Positions 842 through 11,294 of a stretch of DNA of 38,542 nucleotides are shown here, piece after piece (positions within the stretch are counted from its first letter, which is position 1; each line of letters begins with the position of its first letter). Position numbers and translations under genes: made by a program. This DNA is from Halieaceae bacterium MED-G27. Its GTDB lineage: Bacteria > Pseudomonadota > Gammaproteobacteria > Pseudomonadales > Halieaceae. The DNA lies in NCBI GenBank assembly GCA_002456975.1, contig NTKA01000015.1:1-38542 (forward strand), given 5' to 3'. The notes under the pieces are model-generated. The model was not told the origin of the DNA and did not search any database. It was given only the letters and a program-made list of their open reading frames with translations.

Positions 842-1747
842 TTGGCAGCGATGGCGCCCGAGAAGTTAGTTATTGCCATATCGTCCAGGGCGTTATTCGA
901 TCTGGACGAAGAGCATGAGGTCTATGAGTCGCAAGGCTTGGCGGCGTACTCGCAGTATCAAATCGATCATGAGGATACGCCACTCGCTAAAGGGCAGGCC
1001 TTTCCATTGGCGTCTAAACTGTTAGCTCTGAACGATCAGTTAGAAGATCCGTTGGGCGTTGAAATCGTTTTGTTGTCTCGGAACTCCGCCGATACCGGGT
1101 TGCGGATATTCAATTCGATCGAACATTATGGATTGCCCATCACGCGTGCTGCTTTTTGTGGCGGCGAGCCACCATGGCGTTATATTCAGGCTTTTGGCTG
1201 TCATTTGTTCCTTTCATCGGAGTCGGCAGACGTTAGAAAAGCATTGGATAACAATGTTGCGGCCGCCACCTTGGTGTCTCGTCCTCTCGATGGACCCGCG
1301 CGCGATGACATTAGGTTTGCGTTTGATGGCGATGCCGTCATTTTTTCTGATGAAGCCGAGCAGATCTTCAAAGCCGAGGGGCTTAAAGCGTTCACCGAAA
1401 GTGAGGTGGCGCAACGCAATGAACCTTTAAGCGGTGGGCCATTTAAAAACTTTCTCAGTGCGCTACACGCTTTGCAGCGGGCTTTTCCAGAGTCCCAAAG
1501 CCCTATTAGAACTGCCTTGGTGACTGCCAGATCTGCGCCAGCGCACGAGAGGGTGATTCGCACATTGAGGGCTTGGGACATTCGGCTCGACGAGTCGATT
1601 TTCCTGGGTGGATTACCCAAAGTAGAGTTTCTGCGTGCCTACGATGCGGATGTTTTCTTCGACGATCAGCAGTCACACTGTAATCTGGCCGCAGACCATA
1701 TTGCCACCGGCCACGTGCCTCACGGCGTCGCCAATAAGGAGCGCTGA
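842..1747 (+). CDS. 5'-nucleotidase (cytosolic NT5C1-like family)
   Basis: A 301-residue soluble protein of the 5'-nucleotidase family that also includes vertebrate cytosolic nucleotidase I (Pfam 5-nucleotidase, PF06189). It is expected to remove phosphate from nucleoside monophosphates in the cytoplasm. The family pattern is visible: an N-terminal ISSRALFDLD segment supplying the HAD-type aspartates, LLSRNSADTGLRIFNSI, a GGEPPWRYI segment, and a C-terminal FFDDQQSHC acidic motif. The reading frame opens with TTG at 842; an ATG at 851 would shorten it by three residues and is equally plausible, as neither has a strong ribosome site. It sits 3 bases after the symporter. No signal peptide or membrane segment is seen. 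The exact nucleotide preferred is unknown. Confidence 0.85.
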   Translation: MAAMAPEKLVIAISSRALFDLDEEHEVYESQGLAAYSQYQIDHEDTPLAKGQAFPLASKLLALNDQLEDPLGVEIVLLSRNSADTGLRIFNSIEHYGLPITRAAFCGGEPPWRYIQAFGCHLFLSSESADVRKALDNNVAAATLVSRPLDGPARDDIRFAFDGDAVIFSDEAEQIFKAEGLKAFTESEVAQRNEPLSGGPFKNFLSALHALQRAFPESQSPIRTALVTARSAPAHERVIRTLRAWDIRLDESIFLGGLPKVEFLRAYDADVFFDDQQSHCNLAADHIATGHVPHGVANKER

Positions 1748-1812
1748 TTTTTATTACCTTCGGTTCATAAAAAGTTACACTTAGGCTGTTTGGTAATAAA
1801 GCGACGGGTAGT

Positions 1813-2787
1813 TTGAAACTTCAGCAACTAAGATACGTTTGGGAGGTCGCGCATCACGATTTAAACGTGTCGGCGACAGCCCAGAGTCTATTTACTTCGC
1901 AGCCTGGTATCAGCAAGCAGATTCGTGCACTCGAGAGCGAGCTGGGCGTTGAGATCTTCGCCCGCAGTGGCAAGCATCTGACTCACATTACGCCAGCAGG
2001 GGAAGTCATTATTGACCTGGCTGGCGAGATTTTGCGGAAAACCGAGTCGATCAGGCGGGTGGCATCTGATCACTCGGACAACGTCGCTGGGAGCTTTTCG
2101 CTCGCGACAACCCACGGCCAAGCTCGTTACGTGCTGCCAGATTCGATCTCTACCTTTCTGAATAAGCACCCCAAGGTCAATCTGGAGTTGAAACAGGGTA
2201 GCCCACAACAAATAGCTGAGATGGCCTCTAAGGGCGATGTTGATTTTGCGATTGCGACTGAGGCGCTGCATCAATATTCATCGTTGGTGACACTGCCGTT
2301 CTTTCGCTGGAGTCACTGTGTTGTTGTGCCGAGTGATCATGCTCTAGCACAACTGGCTAGCCCGCGGTTGGAAGAGGTAGTGAAATACCCAATCGTGACA
2401 TATACCGAGGGATTTACCGGTCGCTACCGTATCGACGAAGGCTTCGCAGCGAGGGGGCTGACCCCGCAATACACGGTGACGGCAGCTGATGCTGATGTCA
2501 TAAAACGTTATGTGCGCTTGGGCCTCGGCGTCGGGGTCATATCGAGTATGGCCTATGACGTAGCCGATGACTCGGACCTCGTAAAAATTGGAGAGGGCAG
2601 CTATTTTTCTCCAATGCTTTCTTGCATCGCGTTTCGGCGTGGTAGCTACCTTCGTGGTTTTATGTTCGAGTTTATTGAACAGCTTGCACCACACCTGTCC
2701 CCTGACTTTGTGAGGGATGTTATGTCGATTGCTAGTCAAGAGGAGCGAAGTCAATTGTGCGAGCGTCTCGATGTTCCGCGCATTTGA
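1813..2787 (+). CDS. cysB: LysR-type regulator CysB
   Basis: A 324-residue LysR-family DNA-binding regulator, matching E. coli CysB in length and almost column by column: MKLQQLRYVWEV, TSQPGISKQ in the N-terminal winged helix-turn-helix (residues 1-60), FARSGKHLT, then the effector-binding domain with ATTHGQARY, EALHQY, and TYTEGFTGR. CysB activates sulfate assimilation and cysteine synthesis genes in response to N-acetylserine and is countered by sulfide or thiosulfate. The start is TTG at 1813, fixed by alignment to the conserved N-terminus. At residue 102, where E. coli CysB has an effector-contacting threonine, this protein has glycine; Thr100 and Gln103 are kept. It appears monocistronic, with 65 bases before it and 156 after it. 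Identification is very secure; the effect of the substitution is unknown. Confidence 0.95.
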   Translation: MKLQQLRYVWEVAHHDLNVSATAQSLFTSQPGISKQIRALESELGVEIFARSGKHLTHITPAGEVIIDLAGEILRKTESIRRVASDHSDNVAGSFSLATTHGQARYVLPDSISTFLNKHPKVNLELKQGSPQQIAEMASKGDVDFAIATEALHQYSSLVTLPFFRWSHCVVVPSDHALAQLASPRLEEVVKYPIVTYTEGFTGRYRIDEGFAARGLTPQYTVTAADADVIKRYVRLGLGVGVISSMAYDVADDSDLVKIGEGSYFSPMLSCIAFRRGSYLRGFMFEFIEQLAPHLSPDFVRDVMSIASQEERSQLCERLDVPRI

Positions 2788-2943: not shown

Positions 2944-4653
2944 ATGAATTCTAAAGCCAACGCAGCCCCTGAGTTGCGACTCGATAATCCGTTTGTCAGC
3001 AGCGGCAATAAAACGGAGCCCTCATCGCAATACGAGTCAGCGATAGCGCGTGGCGCAGCCCTGCAGAAGATGCCGAGGGCCGCAGCATGCGACAGGAATA
3101 TTCAGCGTCAGCACAGCAAGGATCGAATGACCGTTTGGGAGCGTATCGAATTCTTGGTCGATAGCGCTCCTACTGTTTTGTACCAAAACTGGGGACCTAA
3201 TTTGGATGGTGCCTCACTGGTAACCGCGATCGGGCAGATCGATGGTAGAGATGTTGCCATCTACGGTCATGATTTCACGGTCCGCGCGGGCTCTATGGAT
3301 GCGACTAATGGCGAGAAGCTCGCGCGCTTATTTGAGTTAGCCGGTGAGCGTAAGATCCCACTGGTGGGCCTGAATGATTCTGCGGGCGCCTATATACCCG
3401 CAGGCGTCGGCGGACTCGATGGCTACGCAGAGGCATTTACGGGGCTCAGAAAAATCAGTGGTGTGGTTCCGAGCATTATGTGCATGTTCGGTTTTAACGC
3501 AGGCGGTGGCAGTTACTTGCCCCGGCAGGGCAGTTTTCTGATCCAACCGAAGAATACCTTTTTTGGTCTGACAGGTCCGGGCGTCGTCAAATCAGTTTTG
3601 GGAGAGGACATAACGCCCGATGAGCTAGGAGGGCCGGGGGTGCACAGCCAAACCGGCGTGACCGACTTCGTGGTTGAAGATGAGGTGGCGGCGCTTCATA
3701 AGGTGCGAGAGATCCTCCGATATCTCCCCGACAACAATGGAGCGAGCGCTCCAGTACAAAATTGCTCTGATCCAATAAGCCGTAGCACAGGCGATATCGA
3801 CACTCTGCTCAAAACGGCTTTTGAGTCAGCAACAGGCTTCAATACGCCGGTTGATATTACGATTATCATTCAGCAGCTCTGCGACCACGGCGACTTTTTA
3901 GAGATTCAAGAAGAACGAGCCAAAAACACAGTGACCTGTCTCGGAAGAATTGGTGGGCATGTGGTTGGTTTCGTCGCGAACAACTCCGCTGTCGCCTCGG
4001 GACAGATCGATATTGATGCAGCATACAAAAATGCCCGATTTATCCGGTTTTGTAATCTCTACAACATCCCGGTGATGTTTCTTGAGGATACCACCGGGTT
4101 TTTACCGGGTCGCGAGCAGGAACACCGGGGTATTGTGCAAGCCGGGCGCGCGATGCTGGACGCTATTGTTGATCTCAGAACTCCGAGATTCCTGATCTTG
4201 ATTCGAAATGCGTTCGGCGGTGCTTATGCGTCGTATAACAACTACCCAACGGGCGCCGACTTCGTCGTTGCCTTGCCGACCACGCGTGTCGCCGTGATGG
4301 GCCCTGCAGGCGTCGAGTACGTTTACAAGGACGAGTTGAAAGCTATCCGCAATGCCCGCTCGGGGCGCGTCCAAGCCCTTGTATCGGAGGCGGAAGCGAA
4401 CGGTGTGGGCCCAGAGGTAGCGCTGACGGACGCCGAGGCTCAGGTCTCTGAGTGGATGAAAGCGCAAGAAGCCGACCTGGCAGCTCGCTACGAGCGCGAA
4501 ATAATGAATCCTGAAGAAGCACTCAGCTTGGGATCAGTATCGCAGATTGTGATGCCTTCTGAATTGCGTCACGTCATTGGGGAGCATCTGATGTTCTGTC
4601 TTCGACATTACACCCCGGAACCACTGTCTGGTATTCAGCGAGAATTCCACTAA
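2944..4653 (+). CDS. Acyl-CoA carboxylase, carboxyltransferase (beta) subunit; probable propionyl-CoA carboxylase
   Basis: A 569-residue carboxyltransferase of the biotin-dependent acyl-CoA carboxylase family. It would move carboxyl groups from carboxybiotin to an acyl-CoA, here probably propionyl-CoA giving methylmalonyl-CoA, because the epimerase and mutase genes follow in the same operon. Two crotonase-like halves are visible: the N-half with [18 protein letters not shown] and [13 protein letters not shown], and the C-half with [14 protein letters not shown] and [16 protein letters not shown] (from residue 425) followed by [11 protein letters not shown]. The N-terminal [11 protein letters not shown] also recalls glutaconyl-CoA decarboxylase alpha subunits. 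A 50-residue polar extension precedes the conserved part. The ATG at 2944 has AGGA about 7 bases upstream. The biotin carboxylase subunit follows after 28 bases. Acyl-CoA specificity rests on context only. Confidence 0.88.
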
Positions 4654-4681: not shown

Positions 4682-7456
4682 GTGTCAAACGAACACTATT
4701 TGAACAATGCTCTCGTCCATCAAGATCGACGCTTGGGCGACCGATCTGAACCATGGGTTAGCCAATTCGACTGTTCTCACATCAAACCTCTGATTATCTG
4801 CAGAGGGCCTATCCGCAAAGAGGCGATGGACGTTTTTGATGAAATGGGGATTGCACATTACGGCATCTTGCTGTCAGAAAAGGATTCGATTACGTATCCA
4901 AGGGCACTGGCGCCCGAGCTTCGGTTGATTGCTGAGCCTGATCGGGTGCACCGAGTGACTGACTATTCAGGGGTTGATAAGGCAGACCGAGAGGCGCGTA
5001 TCAACGAAATAATCTCGATCGCCAAGACTCACGGATACAACGCTATCTTCGCAGGCTATGGCTTCATGGCGGAAGACGAAGTCATGGTGGCTGCGATGGA
5101 GCAAGCGGGCTTGAATTTTATCGGTCCCTGCTCGCGTACAGTCCGCCAGGCAGGCCTAAAAGACGAGGCGAAGCGCACGGCCTTGAAAGCGGGCGTTTCG
5201 GTAACCCCTGGTGTCGACAATGCGACCGCACTGACTTTAATTAAAAAACATTCCACCGTTGAGGCGCTCCTAGCAGTGGCTGAGGCGAATAACCTGTCGC
5301 TGGAAGAGGCTGATGATCACCTTGAAGCGCTCGCTGATCGTGTCTTGGCGGCGTCTTATCGTGCCGGTATTGATCTTTATACCGTTGACGAGCTGATCGA
5401 TACGTTGCAAGAAGCGGTTGAGGGGATGAATGAAAAATATCCTAATAACCGCGTCCGATTGAAGGCAATTGGCGGTGGCGGTGGTAAGGGGCAACGCATT
5501 GTCGAGCGCGGTGGGGCCGCACGGACTGGAGAGCTAGTTAAAGAGATTCTTCAGGAGGTCAAAGCGTCCGGAGTTGGTGATAACAAGAATGTACTCGTAG
5601 AACTCAATATTGAGTCGACGCGCCACCAAGAAATCCAAGTCATCGGTAATGGCGAGTGGTGTATGACACTGGGCGGCCGAGATTGCTCGTTGCAAATGCA
5701 CGAGCAGAAGCTGTTAGAGGTGTCTGTTACCCGAGAATCGCTGATCGACTCAGCAACCCAAGCAAGGACAATGGGTGCTGATATCACCGCTGATGCCCTA
5801 GATCGCGATGTGGCGACTCTAGATGCCATGGAGGATGAAGCAGCCCGATTTGGTGAAGCAGTGGGGCTCGATTCGGTATCGACTTTTGAATGCATTGTTG
5901 ATACCGACAGTCATTTCTTTATGGAGATGAACACCCGAATACAGGTTGAGCATCGCGTGTCGGAACTTTGCTACGCCTTAGAGTTCAGTAATCCCGACAA
6001 TTCCGCCGAATCTTTTGTAGTTAATTCCTTAGTGGAGGCCATGGTTTTACTGGCTGCCCACAGATCAAAACTACCAAAGCCTCAACGGCGTGCACGCTTT
6101 AACGATAGTCTCGAGGCGCGGCTTAACGCCACAAACGATGCGCTACAACCCCATGCCGGTGGCCAGATTGAGTATTGGTCCGACGCTGTAGAGGGCGAGA
6201 TACGGGATGATCAGGGTATCTGCGTCCATAATCCAGATACCGATGTATTCATGAAGTACACCTTGGCCGGCGCCTACGACTCCAATATCGCACTGCTGCT
6301 AACCGTGGGGGAGAGTCGTCACACCACCTATGAGCGGATGGCAGAGCTGTTGCGCGTGACGACGCTTCGGGGCCGGGATTTGAGTACAAACCTCAACTTT
6401 CACTACGGGCTCGTGCATTGGTTTTTGGGGCGTACAGTTGACGCGCGCCCTACGACCAAATTCATCGTGCCTTACCTCACGGCGGTCGGTGAGTTAGCTC
6501 AGTTGTCCAATACAGTTGATCTGGATGTGGCCTGGCATCGACTAGCAGCACGCCACAGTGGTATTGCCGCACAGGTCCTCGAGGCAAAGCGAACACTGCT
6601 CACAAGACCAATCAGCGCTCTGCTTGAGTGTCCGCATCAATTATCGGGTTGGTTAAGCGCGAATCAATCCGCTTTTTCCTTTGATGGCTCTGGCATTCGT
6701 TTTGCGGAAAATCCGATAGGCTTGCTGGCAGACACCTACCATTACTTGAATCTTTCGGCCGACAGACAGGGTGCTGCGGCAGAGAGGATTTGGTCGTTGG
6801 ATGCAAAGACTCTCGAGCAGGCGGAAGGTTTTTACAGCGACTTAAGCAAGGCCAGTAATCTCGATGATTGGAGTGCTCTCGAGCAGTTGCTGGCCAGCGA
6901 TGAGGTGCCTAATTGCATTGCGGAGGAGCAGTGGCCTGCGATCCGAGCCGCTCATGCCGGACATCAGCTTGGCCTGGAACTACTCTTTTTGTTGGCCGCT
7001 ATGGCGAAGTCGACGGGTTTTTATGACTTAGCAGTCAATGATGATCTGAGTATCCACATACCTGAGCGCCTTCTAGATGAGTCGCACCAAGATGCCATGG
7101 CGAAAGCACTAGCGCCTCCACCAGTAGCCAAATCGGATGAGATTGTCGCGACAAGCGGAGGAATGTTTTACGGCAGGGAGGCGCCGGAGTCGCCACTCTA
7201 TGTCGAGGCGGGCTCGACTTTCGCCGTAGGCGATCCGTTATTCATCGTTGAGGTCATGAAAATGTTCAATAAAGTCAATGCGCCCTTTGCCGGTCGGATT
7301 GACGAGGTCTTGGTAGAGGGTGACGGAGTCATTATCAAAAAGGGCCAAGCAATTTTTAAGGTGACCCCCGATGACAAGCCTGAGGATATCAGCCCAGAAG
7401 AGGTAGCTCAGCGTCGTGCTAAAGCCACGGATGCCTTGCTCGCAGCTATTGATTGA
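4682..7456 (+). CDS. Biotin carboxylase/biotin carrier fusion subunit of the acyl-CoA carboxylase (alpha subunit)
   Basis: A 924-residue protein joining a biotin carboxylase to a biotin carrier domain; it carboxylates its own biotin using ATP and bicarbonate. The N-terminal domain has FAGYGFMAE and GPCSRTVRQAGLKDEAKR. The ATP-grasp glycine loop GGGGGKG lies at residues 264-270, followed by RDCSLQMHEQK, STFE and MEMNTRIQVEHRV with the metal and bicarbonate residues. The carrier domain carries the biotinyl lysine in EVMKM at residue 860. Oddities are a roughly 60-residue insertion before the glycine loop (about residues 183-255), glutamate where classical enzymes have an active-site histidine, and a 250-residue linker without recognisable motifs. 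It is much longer than usual alpha subunits (about 670). The start is GTG, 28 bases after the carboxyltransferase gene. It may carboxylate propionyl-CoA; other acyl-CoAs are possible. Confidence 0.87.
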   Translation: MSNEHYLNNALVHQDRRLGDRSEPWVSQFDCSHIKPLIICRGPIRKEAMDVFDEMGIAHYGILLSEKDSITYPRALAPELRLIAEPDRVHRVTDYSGVDKADREARINEIISIAKTHGYNAIFAGYGFMAEDEVMVAAMEQAGLNFIGPCSRTVRQAGLKDEAKRTALKAGVSVTPGVDNATALTLIKKHSTVEALLAVAEANNLSLEEADDHLEALADRVLAASYRAGIDLYTVDELIDTLQEAVEGMNEKYPNNRVRLKAIGGGGGKGQRIVERGGAARTGELVKEILQEVKASGVGDNKNVLVELNIESTRHQEIQVIGNGEWCMTLGGRDCSLQMHEQKLLEVSVTRESLIDSATQARTMGADITADALDRDVATLDAMEDEAARFGEAVGLDSVSTFECIVDTDSHFFMEMNTRIQVEHRVSELCYALEFSNPDNSAESFVVNSLVEAMVLLAAHRSKLPKPQRRARFNDSLEARLNATNDALQPHAGGQIEYWSDAVEGEIRDDQGICVHNPDTDVFMKYTLAGAYDSNIALLLTVGESRHTTYERMAELLRVTTLRGRDLSTNLNFHYGLVHWFLGRTVDARPTTKFIVPYLTAVGELAQLSNTVDLDVAWHRLAARHSGIAAQVLEAKRTLLTRPISALLECPHQLSGWLSANQSAFSFDGSGIRFAENPIGLLADTYHYLNLSADRQGAAAERIWSLDAKTLEQAEGFYSDLSKASNLDDWSALEQLLASDEVPNCIAEEQWPAIRAAHAGHQLGLELLFLLAAMAKSTGFYDLAVNDDLSIHIPERLLDESHQDAMAKALAPPPVAKSDEIVATSGGMFYGREAPESPLYVEAGSTFAVGDPLFIVEVMKMFNKVNAPFAGRIDEVLVEGDGVIIKKGQAIFKVTPDDKPEDISPEEVAQRRAKATDALLAAID

Positions 7457-7465
7457 GGAAGCAAC

Positions 7466-7873
7466 ATGATTACCGGACTAGATCATATCGCTATTGCAGT
7501 ACCTGATTTAGACGCTGCAATACAGCGTTTCATGACCGATTTTGGTCTCGACTACGAAGGGACTGAAGAGGTAGAAGCGGCAAAAACGTCGACTGCGTTC
7601 TTCCCCTTACCACCTACCAGCATTGAGCTCGTTCACCCACTACGTGGTGAGGGTGCAATCGCTAAGTATTTAGAGAAGCGAGGCGGTGGTATCCATCACC
7701 TGTGCTTCCGGACTGACGATATCGAAGCAGACGTGGCTCGACTTAAGGACAAGGGCTACATCTTTACCAGCGATGCGCCGACACCGGGTGCGCACGGTGC
7801 TACTGTTATTTTTATCCATCCAAAATGCTGCGACGGGGTTCTAATCGAACTGTCTCAGCCTGCTGAGGCCTAA
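7466..7873 (+). CDS. mce: Methylmalonyl-CoA epimerase
   Basis: A 135-residue member of the glyoxalase/vicinal-oxygen-chelate fold that interconverts (S)- and (R)-methylmalonyl-CoA, supplying the isomer used by the mutase encoded next. The typical pattern is complete: [15 protein letters not shown] at the N-terminus (metal-binding His), TSIELVHPL with the metal-binding Glu, a [14 protein letters not shown] segment (second His) and VLIELSQP at the C-terminus with the final Glu. Length is normal for the family. It lies 9 bases after the carboxylase alpha gene and 4 bases before the mutase, which strongly supports the function against other members of this broad fold family. The ATG at 7466 is preceded by GAGGAAG. 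Confidence 0.93.
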
Positions 7874-7877
7874 TTGC

Positions 7878-10025
7878 GTGAGCGTTTACGACCCAAATGA
7901 TGCGACCCCTGAAGCGTGGGCGAGCCTTGTAGAAAAACAAAGTAAAGGACTCACTCCCGATGAGTTCACCTGGCTGACTCCCGAGGATATTCCGCTAAAG
8001 GTGTTGTACACGGCTGAGGATACTGAGGCCTTGCCCTATACCAATACTATGCCGGGAATGAGTCCATACATTCGAGGGCCTCAAGCGACGATGTACGCGG
8101 GTCGGCGCTGGACAATTCGCCAATACGCGGGCTTCTCCACGGCCGAGGAATCAAACGCGTTCTACCGCAAGGCACTGGCGGCGGGCGGACAAGGGGTATC
8201 GGTAGCATTTGACCTCGCTACCCACCGTGGCTATGACTCAGATCATCCGCGAGTTGCGGGCGATGTAGGCAAGGCGGGAGTTGCTATCGACTCGGTCGAG
8301 GATATGAAAATCCTTTTCGATGGCATTCCTCTGGACAAGGTTTCGGTATCGATGACCATGAATGGCGCTGTTTTGCCGGTGCTTGCCGGCTACATTGTCG
8401 CTGCTGAAGAACAAGGGGTGTCGACTGATGCGCTTGCGGGCACCATTCAGAACGATATTTTGAAAGAGTTCATGGTGCGAAACACCTATATCTATCCTCC
8501 GACCCAGAGTATGCGAGTCATTGGCGACATTATTGCGTTCTGCTCAAGCAATATGCCGCGTTTTAATACGATTTCTATTTCTGGTTATCACATGCAAGAA
8601 GCGGGTGCCAATGCGGCGCTGGAACTCGCTTACACCCTTGCTGATGGCAAGGAATACATCCGGACCGCGATCAAAGCGGGTCTTGGAATCGATGATTTTG
8701 CCCCACGGTTATCGTTTTTCTGGGGTATTGGCATGAACTTCTACATGGAGATTGCCAAGATGCGTGCGGCCCGTTTGCTCTGGGCAGAAATAGTAGGAGA
8801 GTTTGAGCCTACGAATCTAAAAAGCAGCATGTTACGGACGCATTGTCAGACCAGTGGCTGGTCGCTGACTGAGCAGGATCCTTACAACAACATCGTGCGA
8901 ACCACTATAGAGGCGATGGCGGCCGTTTTTGGCGGAACACAGTCGCTCCATACCAATGCATTGGATGAAGCGATCGCATTGCCATCGGACTTTGCGGCAA
9001 GGATCGCAAGGAACACGCAGTTGGTACTTCAGGAAGAGACGGGAATTGGCCAAGTCGTTGATCCGTGGGGCGGTTCCTACATGATGGAGTCACTGACCAA
9101 CGATATTGCGGAAAAAGCTCGCGAATTAATCGCTGAGGTAGAAGCCGCAGGTGGTATGGCGCAAGCGATTGAAACCGGCCTGCCCAAACTTCGGATCGAA
9201 GAGGCTGCAGCGAAGAAGCAGGCCCGCATCGATCGTGGTGAAGATGTCATTGTTGGTGTTAACAAATACCGTATCGAAGAGCAGGATGAAGTCGATATCC
9301 TTGAGGTCGATAACGATGCCGTGCGCGAGTCACAGATTGCGAGACTGAAATCGATTCGTGAATCCCGCGATGAGGATAAGGTGCAGGCGTGTTTGGCCGC
9401 GTTGGCACATGCTGCGGAAAGCGAGGAGGGGAACTTACTCGCATTGGCGGTCGATGCTACCCGGCATCGAGCGACGGTAGGCGAGATTTCGGATGCGCTT
9501 GAGAAGTGCTTTGGTCGTTTCGTCGCGAGTGCACAAACGGTCTCAGGAGTATATGGTGCGGCTTACGAGCTAGACGAAAGCTGGAAACAGATCGCCATGG
9601 ATATAGACAGCTTTGTTGAGACACACGGTCGCAGGCCGCGTCTATTGGTCGCAAAGATGGGTCAGGACGGACATGATCGTGGTGCAAAGGTGGTAGCTAC
9701 CGCCTTTGCAGACGTAGGCTTTGACGTCGACCTATCACCGATGTTTGCCACACCCGAGGAAGTGGCAAGACAGGCGGTGGAGAATGATGTGCATATTGTG
9801 GGCGCCTCTAGCCTCGCGGCGGGTCACAAAACTTTGGTGCCTCAATTAATCGAAGCGCTGAAAGCCGAAGGTGCCGACGATATTATTGTCATTGCCGGTG
9901 GCGTCATTCCGCAGCAGGACTACGATTATCTGTACGAAGCCGGTGTGGAGTTGATTTTTGGCCCCGGCACCCCGATTCCCGATGCTGCGAGGCGTGTGCT
10001 AGATGCGGTCAACGCCGTCAGCTGA
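7878..10025 (+). CDS. scpA: Methylmalonyl-CoA mutase (adenosylcobalamin-dependent), single-chain
   Basis: A 715-residue mutase, the same size as E. coli Sbm/ScpA. It rearranges (R)-methylmalonyl-CoA to succinyl-CoA with adenosylcobalamin. The catalytic barrel shows [58 protein letters not shown] and [10 protein letters not shown]. The C-terminal B12-binding domain has [11 protein letters not shown] with the cobalt-ligating His at residue 599, then GASSLAAGH and [11 protein letters not shown]. It is complete with no missing catalytic segment. It starts with GTG at 7878, 4 bases after the epimerase, and its last 23 bases overlap the meaB gene, a typical tight coupling. The gene symbol follows the E. 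coli name; mutA/mcmA would also be used. Confidence 0.96.
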
Positions 10026-10983
10026 GGCTATTCTTGCGGGCGATCGTAGAGCCTTGGCCAAGGCGATCACGCTGGTTGAAAGTATCCGTCCGCAAGACAG
10101 AAAAGCCAGCCAGGAATTACTGAACGAGTTATTACCGCACACTGGCAACAGTATAAGACTTGGCATCACGGGTGTTCCGGGGGTCGGAAAATCGACCTTC
10201 ATCGAATCCTTTGGCCAAACAGTGCTAGCCCAGGGTAAAAAGGTGGCCGTTTTGGCAGTTGATCCTAGCTCACCGGTTGCCGGCGGGTCGATTCTCGGCG
10301 ATAAAACCAGAATGGAGCAGCTGTCGCGGGAGACTCACGCCTTTATCAGGCCGTCCCCAGCAGGCAAGGCTCTAGGGGGTGTCGCGCTCAAAACCCGTGA
10401 ATCGATGCTGTTGTGTGAAGCAGCAGGGTTTGACGTCGTAGTGGTCGAGACCGTCGGCGTCGGTCAATCCGAGCATCAAGTCGGTAGCATGGTCGATTTC
10501 TTCCTGATTCTTTTATTACCAGGCGGCGGTGATGAGCTTCAGGGCATCAAGAAGGGCATTCTCGAATTAGCGGATGCGATTCTCATCAATAAAGCCGATG
10601 GTGAGAGCGCGAATTTAGCCAACAAAACACGGCTTCACTACCAGAGTGCCTTATCGTTGCTCACGCAGAATGGGTTCTGGTCGCCAGAGGTGCGAACCTG
10701 TTCTGCGCTTGAGCGTTCGGGGATTAGCGAGGCTTGGGACATGATCACGCGATTCCATGACGAAGCGGTATCAGCGGGTCATTTGGCTACGCTTCGGTCA
10801 GAGCAAAATCTACAATGGATGTGGCAGTTGACCGATCAGCTCTTGCGTCAGCAAATCACGGAGCACCCAACGTTAGCGACCCGCCTACCAGCCATTGAGG
10901 CGCAAGTGGGTGCGTCAACACTTACGCCCCTGTCTGCCGCACAGAGCATCATCGATCACTTGCAAACAGGAAGTGAAGACTGA
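10003..10983 (+). CDS. meaB: Methylmalonyl-CoA mutase chaperone GTPase MeaB (ArgK/YgfD type)
   Basis: A 326-residue G3E-family GTPase that protects and reactivates methylmalonyl-CoA mutase and gates loading of intact adenosylcobalamin. The Walker A motif GVPGVGKST is at residues 57-65, followed by [34 protein letters not shown], the ETVGVGQSE switch region and the NKAD base-specificity motif. Length and motif order match bacterial MeaB and human MMAA. The start codon lies inside the mutase gene in another frame (23-base overlap), and the next gene begins 2 bases after its stop. The old ArgK name (arginine transport kinase) should not be used here. Confidence 0.95.
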
Positions 10984-10985
10984 TC

Positions 10986-11294
10986 ATGCGCTTTATGCCG
11001 CTCGATCGTCTAATTAACCTCCGTGACGGATACCGACGCCGCTTTAAAGTCGATGCACTTGACTTAGTATTGGCGCAAGAGTACGGCACGCTTTACGCAT
11101 TTTCGTCACGATGCCCGCACCAATACCAGTCGCTCGTGGATGCCGATATCGAGGAGGGCACTGTGTTTTGCCCTCGCCACAATTTCGCATTTTCGCTAGA
11201 TACCGGACTGCATGCCGATGGCTTTTGCGATGCCATTTCAATATACCGGATTCATTACGAAGGTAATGCAGTAGGCATCCTACTCGAGCACTAG
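10986..11294 (+). CDS. Small Rieske [2Fe-2S] ferredoxin-like protein
   Basis: A 102-residue stand-alone Rieske domain. The cluster-binding pattern is Cys43-Pro-His45, sixteen residues, then Cys62-Pro-Arg-His65 (motifs CPHQ and CPRHNFAFS). No signal peptide or membrane anchor is seen, so it is probably a cytoplasmic electron carrier or an oxygenase ferredoxin component. It lies 2 bases after meaB at the end of the propionate operon, but nothing in the known methylmalonyl-CoA pathway needs a Rieske protein. The downstream gene on the opposite strand encodes a 2-oxoglutarate oxygenase homologue, not a Rieske oxygenase. Its stop codon shares the CTAG tetramer at 11291-11294 with that gene. The partner is unknown. 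Confidence 0.82.
   Translation: MRFMPLDRLINLRDGYRRRFKVDALDLVLAQEYGTLYAFSSRCPHQYQSLVDADIEEGTVFCPRHNFAFSLDTGLHADGFCDAISIYRIHYEGNAVGILLEH
11291..11294. other. CTAG: shared convergent stop codons (Rieske gene / roxA)
   Basis: The plus-strand Rieske gene ends with TAG at 11292-11294 and the minus-strand oxygenase gene ends with TAG at 11293-11291. The two stops occupy the same CTAG palindrome, so the genes overlap by four bases with no intergenic DNA. Confidence 0.95.

Follow-up and report, generated by a model that had tools for sequence, protein, structure and literature searches.

The gene at positions 4682-7456 (forward strand) of the window, the whole 38,542-nucleotide stretch of contig NTKA01000015.1 from Halieaceae bacterium MED-G27 analyzed here, encodes what is probably the alpha subunit of a two-subunit biotin-dependent propionyl-CoA carboxylase (PCC) belonging to a divergent clade. 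The 924-aa product, read from a GTG start, consists of a biotin carboxylase (BC) part, a helical linker and a biotin carrier domain; the first base of residue n lies at 4682+3(n-1), and the coding residues span 4682-7453. The sequence-only reading had drawn attention to an insertion in the BC part. The insertion is genuine and characterizes a separate branch of biotin carboxylase subunits, in which the linker is also rebuilt and contact residues are altered; that focus proved too narrow, as the linker is a larger difference than the insertion. The clade represents a genuine variant within a known kind of enzyme, no description of which came up in our searches, and is structurally surprising and mechanistically conventional. 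Biotin carboxylases are well studied, and a replaced linker domain, if true, would represent another way to join alpha and beta subunits.

The biotin carboxylase core and its clade

The Pfam models Biotin_carb_N, CPSase_L_D2 and Biotin_lipoyl all scored above their cut-offs in the 924-aa protein, and Biotin_carb_C stayed below its gathering score (26.1 vs 32.4 bits). This shortfall reflects divergence, since several clade members pass the cut-off, and the fold of the Biotin_carb_C region is present in the model of the window protein. The Biotin_lipoyl match lies at the C-terminus (residues 834-893) and contains the MKM motif, assigning K860 in EVMKMFN (7259-7261, forward strand) as the biotin-accepting lysine by position and domain match. 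An ATP-grasp BC core with its catalytic residues and a C-terminal carrier, both required of a biotin-dependent acyl-CoA carboxylase alpha subunit, are thus present. The protein scored under the cut-offs of the NCBIfam models for pyruvate carboxylase (182.6 vs 965 bits), accC (161.8 vs 626.5 bits) and urea carboxylase (154.6 vs 1303.85 bits).

The BC domain was aligned with E. coli AccC, 70 other ordinary BC rows and relatives from its own clade, giving 44 clade rows, 20 of them from the window's own genus. The alignment left out the duplicates L003 and L114-L119 and ordinary BC frames of at least 800 aa (fusions), and locus L042 fell below the length limit; the 'canonical' row C_L033 duplicates clade member L033 and was excluded from the 71 ordinary BCs. 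FastTree analysis of the 115 BC domains recovered the 44 clade rows as monophyletic (support 1.0) on a stem of 1.85 substitutions per site, and the window BC was at most 38% identical to any of the 71 ordinary BCs. No description of the clade was found in the open-access literature searched, without preprints. The suggestion of a separate carboxylase subfamily therefore holds, given the monophyly, the NCBIfam scores below every cut-off and the outcome of the literature searches.

Every readable clade row kept E. coli K116, K159, E201, H209, Q233, Q237 and K238, as well as E276, E288, N290, R292, E296 and R338, which are catalytic residues of E. coli BC. A different set of residues was altered. 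R16 (E. coli numbering) is replaced by glutamate in 43/43 readable clade members, corresponding to E47 in the window protein, and in 0/70 ordinary rows. All 70 ordinary rows kept R16, PCC-like alpha subunits among them, and the loss of R16 is therefore not simply a PCC trait. Further clade replacements are H79 to F, P80 to A or T, R235 to H, H236 to E or D, and P298 to R, which appear in the window protein as FA for H79-P80, MHE for R234-R235-H236, and R for P298. In E. coli BC, the R16E exchange weakens the dimer. The title of PDB entry 3rv4 names the R16E mutant of E. coli BC; no paper on R16E and the BC dimer was found in the open-access literature, without preprints.

The AlphaFold2 model of the window alpha subunit, computed from 26 sequences that all came from the window or related loci, had a mean pLDDT of 87.5 and a pTM of 0.89. 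VIA-align returned E. coli BC (3rv4) as the top row (Z 39.9, rmsd 2.8), with other BC entries tied, and 436/446 residues of 3rv4 aligned within model residues 31-600, confirming the BC fold shared with AccC. Up to about 130 model residues in this range lack an E. coli BC counterpart, an upper figure because VIA-align skipped some low-confidence stretches. AccC itself differs in being a separate subunit devoid of carrier or linker.

The insertion between the A and B domains

The sequence-only reading had placed an insertion at 5220-5472 (about residues 180-264), estimating about 80 residues before the ATP-binding lysine, compared with about 20 in E. coli. Measurement agreed on both counts. In the window protein, 83 residues separate Gly177 of the PG turn from Lys261 (equivalent to E. 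coli K159). The same glycine-to-lysine spacing was 81-93 in 43/43 measurable clade members, window included (row L040 is truncated and its spacing not measurable), and 23-25 in 71/71 ordinary BCs, that is, E. coli AccC and 70 others, corresponding to a net insertion of about 57-69 residues across the clade and 59 in the window. Since the long spacing is clade-wide and absent from the 71 ordinary BCs, it reflects neither chance nor a broken gene. A broken or frameshifted window gene was ruled out, as the frame is open and conserved among relatives; together with the retained catalytic residues, this upholds the proposal of a real variant.

In the model, residues 180-234 (5219-5383, forward strand) form three extra helices between the A domain and the B domain (181-189, 193-202 and 214-228), followed by a helix at 235-252 and a strand at 257-262, with block pLDDT values of 84-94 over residues 181-240. 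As modelled, the region is not an ordinary AccC B-domain free of extra elements: E. coli BC fits nearly whole, and three helices are added. The segment had also been described as mostly helical and acidic. The helices are borne out by the model, and the acidity is no more than mild, as residues 180-234 contain 9 D/E and 4 K/R in the window and the insert averages 15% D+E over 20 representatives, the same as the adjacent A domain. A Pfam search with residues 174-260 gave sub-threshold matches only, the best being DUF6781 (17.7 bits vs a cut-off of 27).

Mean pairwise identity was 39% in the insert and 28% in the following helix, compared with 66-72% in the core. Such low conservation would suit a structurally inert insertion, in which the A-B hinge merely tolerates extra surface helices that play no part in assembly or regulation, and this reading, which is compatible with PCC function, is possible though rather doubtful. 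The insert is 53-60 residues long in 20 representatives and was never lost in 43 members, L186, L196, L222 and D231 are invariant in 14 sequences, and other coordinated changes occur within the same clade, all of which argue against inertness. The insertion adds three predicted helices, almost uniform in length across the clade, where the A domain hinges on the ATP-grasp B domain (lid), and it most likely acts as a docking or hinge element that evolved together with the helical linker and a lengthened carboxyltransferase.

A split BC gene, with two ORFs broken inside the insertion, was considered for the Leptospiraceae locus L042 and rejected. Two N bases within the insertion (L042:9549-9550) make this gene appear split, and the gene is one open frame in five other genomes of the family, indicating an assembly gap.

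The helical linker and the partner carboxyltransferase

Besides the insertion, the window protein has an N-terminal extension of about 30 residues and extra stretches at residues about 85-96, 347-368, 434-448 and 509-517 relative to E. coli AccC, all overlooked in the earlier reading. The second expansion, residues 347-368 (5720-5785, forward strand), comprises 22 residues missing in E. coli AccC, and the K343-E403 spacing that contains it was 55-64 in 43/44 clade rows, 41 in the sister form L033 and 37 in 71/71 ordinary BCs.

The linker domain (residues 582-805; 6425-7096, forward strand) occupies the place of the BT domain in known PCC alpha subunits. From the end of BC to the MKM motif, 42/43 clade rows have 250-270 residues and the sister form L033 has 123, compared with 125-194 in the 19 ordinary rows having the motif. 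When residues 583-816 were modelled alone from 9 sequences, the linker was nearly all helix (pLDDT 88.6), and DSSP on the predicted models assigned helices and two short strands to this region. In GCC, MCC and PCC alpha subunits, the BT domain wraps a beta-barrel around a long helix and has a hook that contacts the beta subunit (PMC4673880). MCC and GCC alpha thus share the BC-linker-BCCP layout with the window protein and differ in that their linker holds the BT domain described there, whereas the window model has almost only helices; no helix in a beta-barrel was found between BC and BCCP in the predicted models. Residues 583-816 had no Pfam match, a linker profile had a single PDB match, a globin (E 0.19), the linker model found no convincing PDB match in Foldseek (best E 0.45), and VIA-align on the Foldseek candidates reached Z 4.0 at best. 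Such poor database matches do not prove a new fold.

Directly upstream lies the partner carboxyltransferase (CT, beta subunit), a 569-aa protein (2944-4653, forward strand; Carboxyl_trans, 362.6 bits) with a lengthened segment near its C-terminus. Between two conserved near-C-terminal points, this segment spans 49-67 residues in window-like CTs (more than 55% identical to the window CT; 44 rows, or 41 once the duplicates L114, L115 and L119 are set aside) and 34-44 in 21 ordinary CTs, with the 43 residues of L033 falling within the ordinary range. L033 (genome G054, 740 aa) resembles the clade in its spacing of 93, its R16 to E replacement and most clade residues, and resembles the window in having one cluster with the mutase and CT. 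It differs in a linker about half as long and in its short CT segment. As L033 combines the shortest linker with the shortest CT segment, it hints, from one case, that the two evolved together.

Compared with PCC, the window clade agrees in carrying BC and BCCP on the alpha subunit with a separate CT subunit, in the conserved ATP and biotin residues and in the methylmalonyl-CoA pathway gene context, and differs in the three-helix insert, the helical linker replacing the BT barrel, the R16 to E replacement and the longer CT segment. The last three differences hint at a quaternary structure unlike that of known PCC, which is plausible. We propose, tentatively, a PCC lineage whose alpha subunit may hold the carboxyltransferase through an all-helical, undescribed fold, and in which the hinge insert and the natural Arg16-to-Glu change might lead to a geometry unlike alpha6-beta6.

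Gene context, distribution and substrate

The window gene order is CT, BC, epimerase, mutase and MeaB, the last three exceeding curated NCBIfam cut-offs: methylmalonyl-CoA epimerase (7466-7873, TIGR03081), methylmalonyl-CoA mutase (7878-10025, NF006944, 1276.7 bits, cut-off 876) and MeaB, the GTPase chaperone of the mutase (10003-10983, NF006958), all on the forward strand. This full order recurred in 5/19 related loci (L024-L042), namely L027, L028, L034, L035 and L036. The locus ends truncate the order in four loci (L024, L025, L039 and L040), where a portion is seen, and L024 has about 2 kb between BC and the epimerase. The epimerase is missing between BC and mutase in L026 and L029, and in L031 BC is followed by the mutase and MeaB and then by an epimerase-like gene. 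The mutase and MeaB lie across the CT, on the opposite side, in L032 and L033. L030 and L038 end just past BC, and in L037 nearly 8 kb of downstream sequence contain neither an epimerase nor a mutase nor MeaB. L041 (SAR324) has no window-like CT within its 20.7 kb, and L042 has CT and BC only.

Among 58 genomes of the order (own included), BC was found in 43: 33/37 in the genus and 10/21 elsewhere in the order, the four genus genomes without it being 54-79% complete. A classical mutase was present in 43/43 BC-bearing and 0/15 BC-lacking genomes, with mutase counted from fragments beside BC at contig ends in G013 and G033, and with other mutase-type proteins (547-aa and 1237-aa frames) in the BC-lacking G028 and G042 not counted as classical. 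In 41/43 genomes, BC and mutase shared a contig and lay no more than 8 kb apart. The co-occurrence has p = 3e-14 (58 genomes), a value that overstates the case because the genomes are related. In G048 and G050, both 99% complete, an AccC-like BC and the clade BC were the only BCs found; the other carboxyltransferases of G050 are two short AccA/AccD-like proteins only, and G048 encodes one more protein of the carboxyltransferase type (523 aa) in addition to the adjacent CT. This elimination, together with the gene context, supports the PCC function.

Outside Gammaproteobacteria, the BC-mutase pairing was looser, with a mutase in 12/13 genomes examined and in 11/12 BC carriers: G355 (a Deltaproteobacteria MAG) has BC and no mutase was found in it, and G623 (Leptospiraceae family) has a mutase and no BC match. 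The two genes sit on different contigs in the Leptospiraceae and SAR324 genomes. Among the matches listed, carriers include Zhongshania aliphaticivorans and MAGs labelled Cellvibrionaceae, Oleiphilus, Deltaproteobacteria, SAR324 and Leptospiraceae, and 7/8 genomes of the Leptospiraceae MAG's family, MAG included, carry BC. A contig scan with two generic peptides, from which 80 loci were kept, recovered at least 9 clade loci. In broad draws, BC was present in at least 1/299 genomes of the phylum (own) and at least 2/275 of the class (own and one other), both lower bounds because just 2-3 candidates were scored per genome. Plasmids gave no match at E 1e-20.

These data bear on the substrate. The complex could carboxylate a different acyl-CoA (acetyl-, butyryl- or branched-chain acyl-CoA) and be encoded beside the mutase because its products enter neighbouring pathways. 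Consistent with this, the window CT is divergent, with its best PDB relative at 304.7 bits and scores far below the cut-off of every NCBIfam model it matched, and the Leptospiraceae and SAR324 genomes do not have BC next to the mutase. We nevertheless regard another substrate as unlikely, given the classical mutase next to BC in 41/43 genomes, the lack of any other BC except AccC in G048 and G050 and of another long CT in G050, and the deposition of the best solved CT relatives as PCC beta and a hypothetical methylmalonyl-CoA decarboxylase alpha subunit. Reverse use of the complex, as a methylmalonyl-CoA decarboxylase or transcarboxylase, would fit the best NCBIfam match of the CT (mmdA, 345 bits vs a cut-off of 998.8) and is highly improbable, since the carrier is joined to a BC domain that has retained its catalytic residues, and a BC domain distinguishes carboxylases from decarboxylases and transcarboxylases, as stated in a 2011 survey (PMC3199775).

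Propionyl-CoA is thus the likely substrate, judging from context and elimination, and the clade most likely serves as the PCC in some members of the Gammaproteobacteria and in a small number of other bacteria. As a PCC, the BC domain would carboxylate biotin on K860 using ATP and bicarbonate, and the carrier domain would bring carboxybiotin to the carboxyltransferase encoded directly upstream, yielding methylmalonyl-CoA, which the epimerase and the mutase with MeaB would convert to succinyl-CoA. Cells process propionate, odd-chain fats and some amino acids through the methylmalonyl-CoA route. In Table 1 of the 2011 survey, none of 69 gammaproteobacterial genomes was credited with a monofunctional PCC; the survey did score less specifically assigned 'acyl-CoA carboxylase' sequences in one spirochete and in some Gammaproteobacteria (PMC3199775), among which the clade may be found. 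The clade may supply the propionyl-CoA carboxylase step in part of the Gammaproteobacteria.

Three neighbouring genes of the window were named by reading their sequences. A 5'-nucleotidase-like gene and then a LysR-type regulator (window 842-2787) precede the carboxylase operon; both also lie upstream in L026 and L036, and the regulator alone, partly cut, in L027-L029. A small Rieske-like protein with CPH and CPRH motifs (10986-11294) follows MeaB. In L033, from the same order, MeaB is unlike that of the window in being fused to GGDEF-EAL, and this 905-aa GTPase-GGDEF-EAL protein (L033:3547-6264) is encoded between the mutase and carboxyltransferase genes, which suggests that the mutase chaperone is connected with cyclic-di-GMP.
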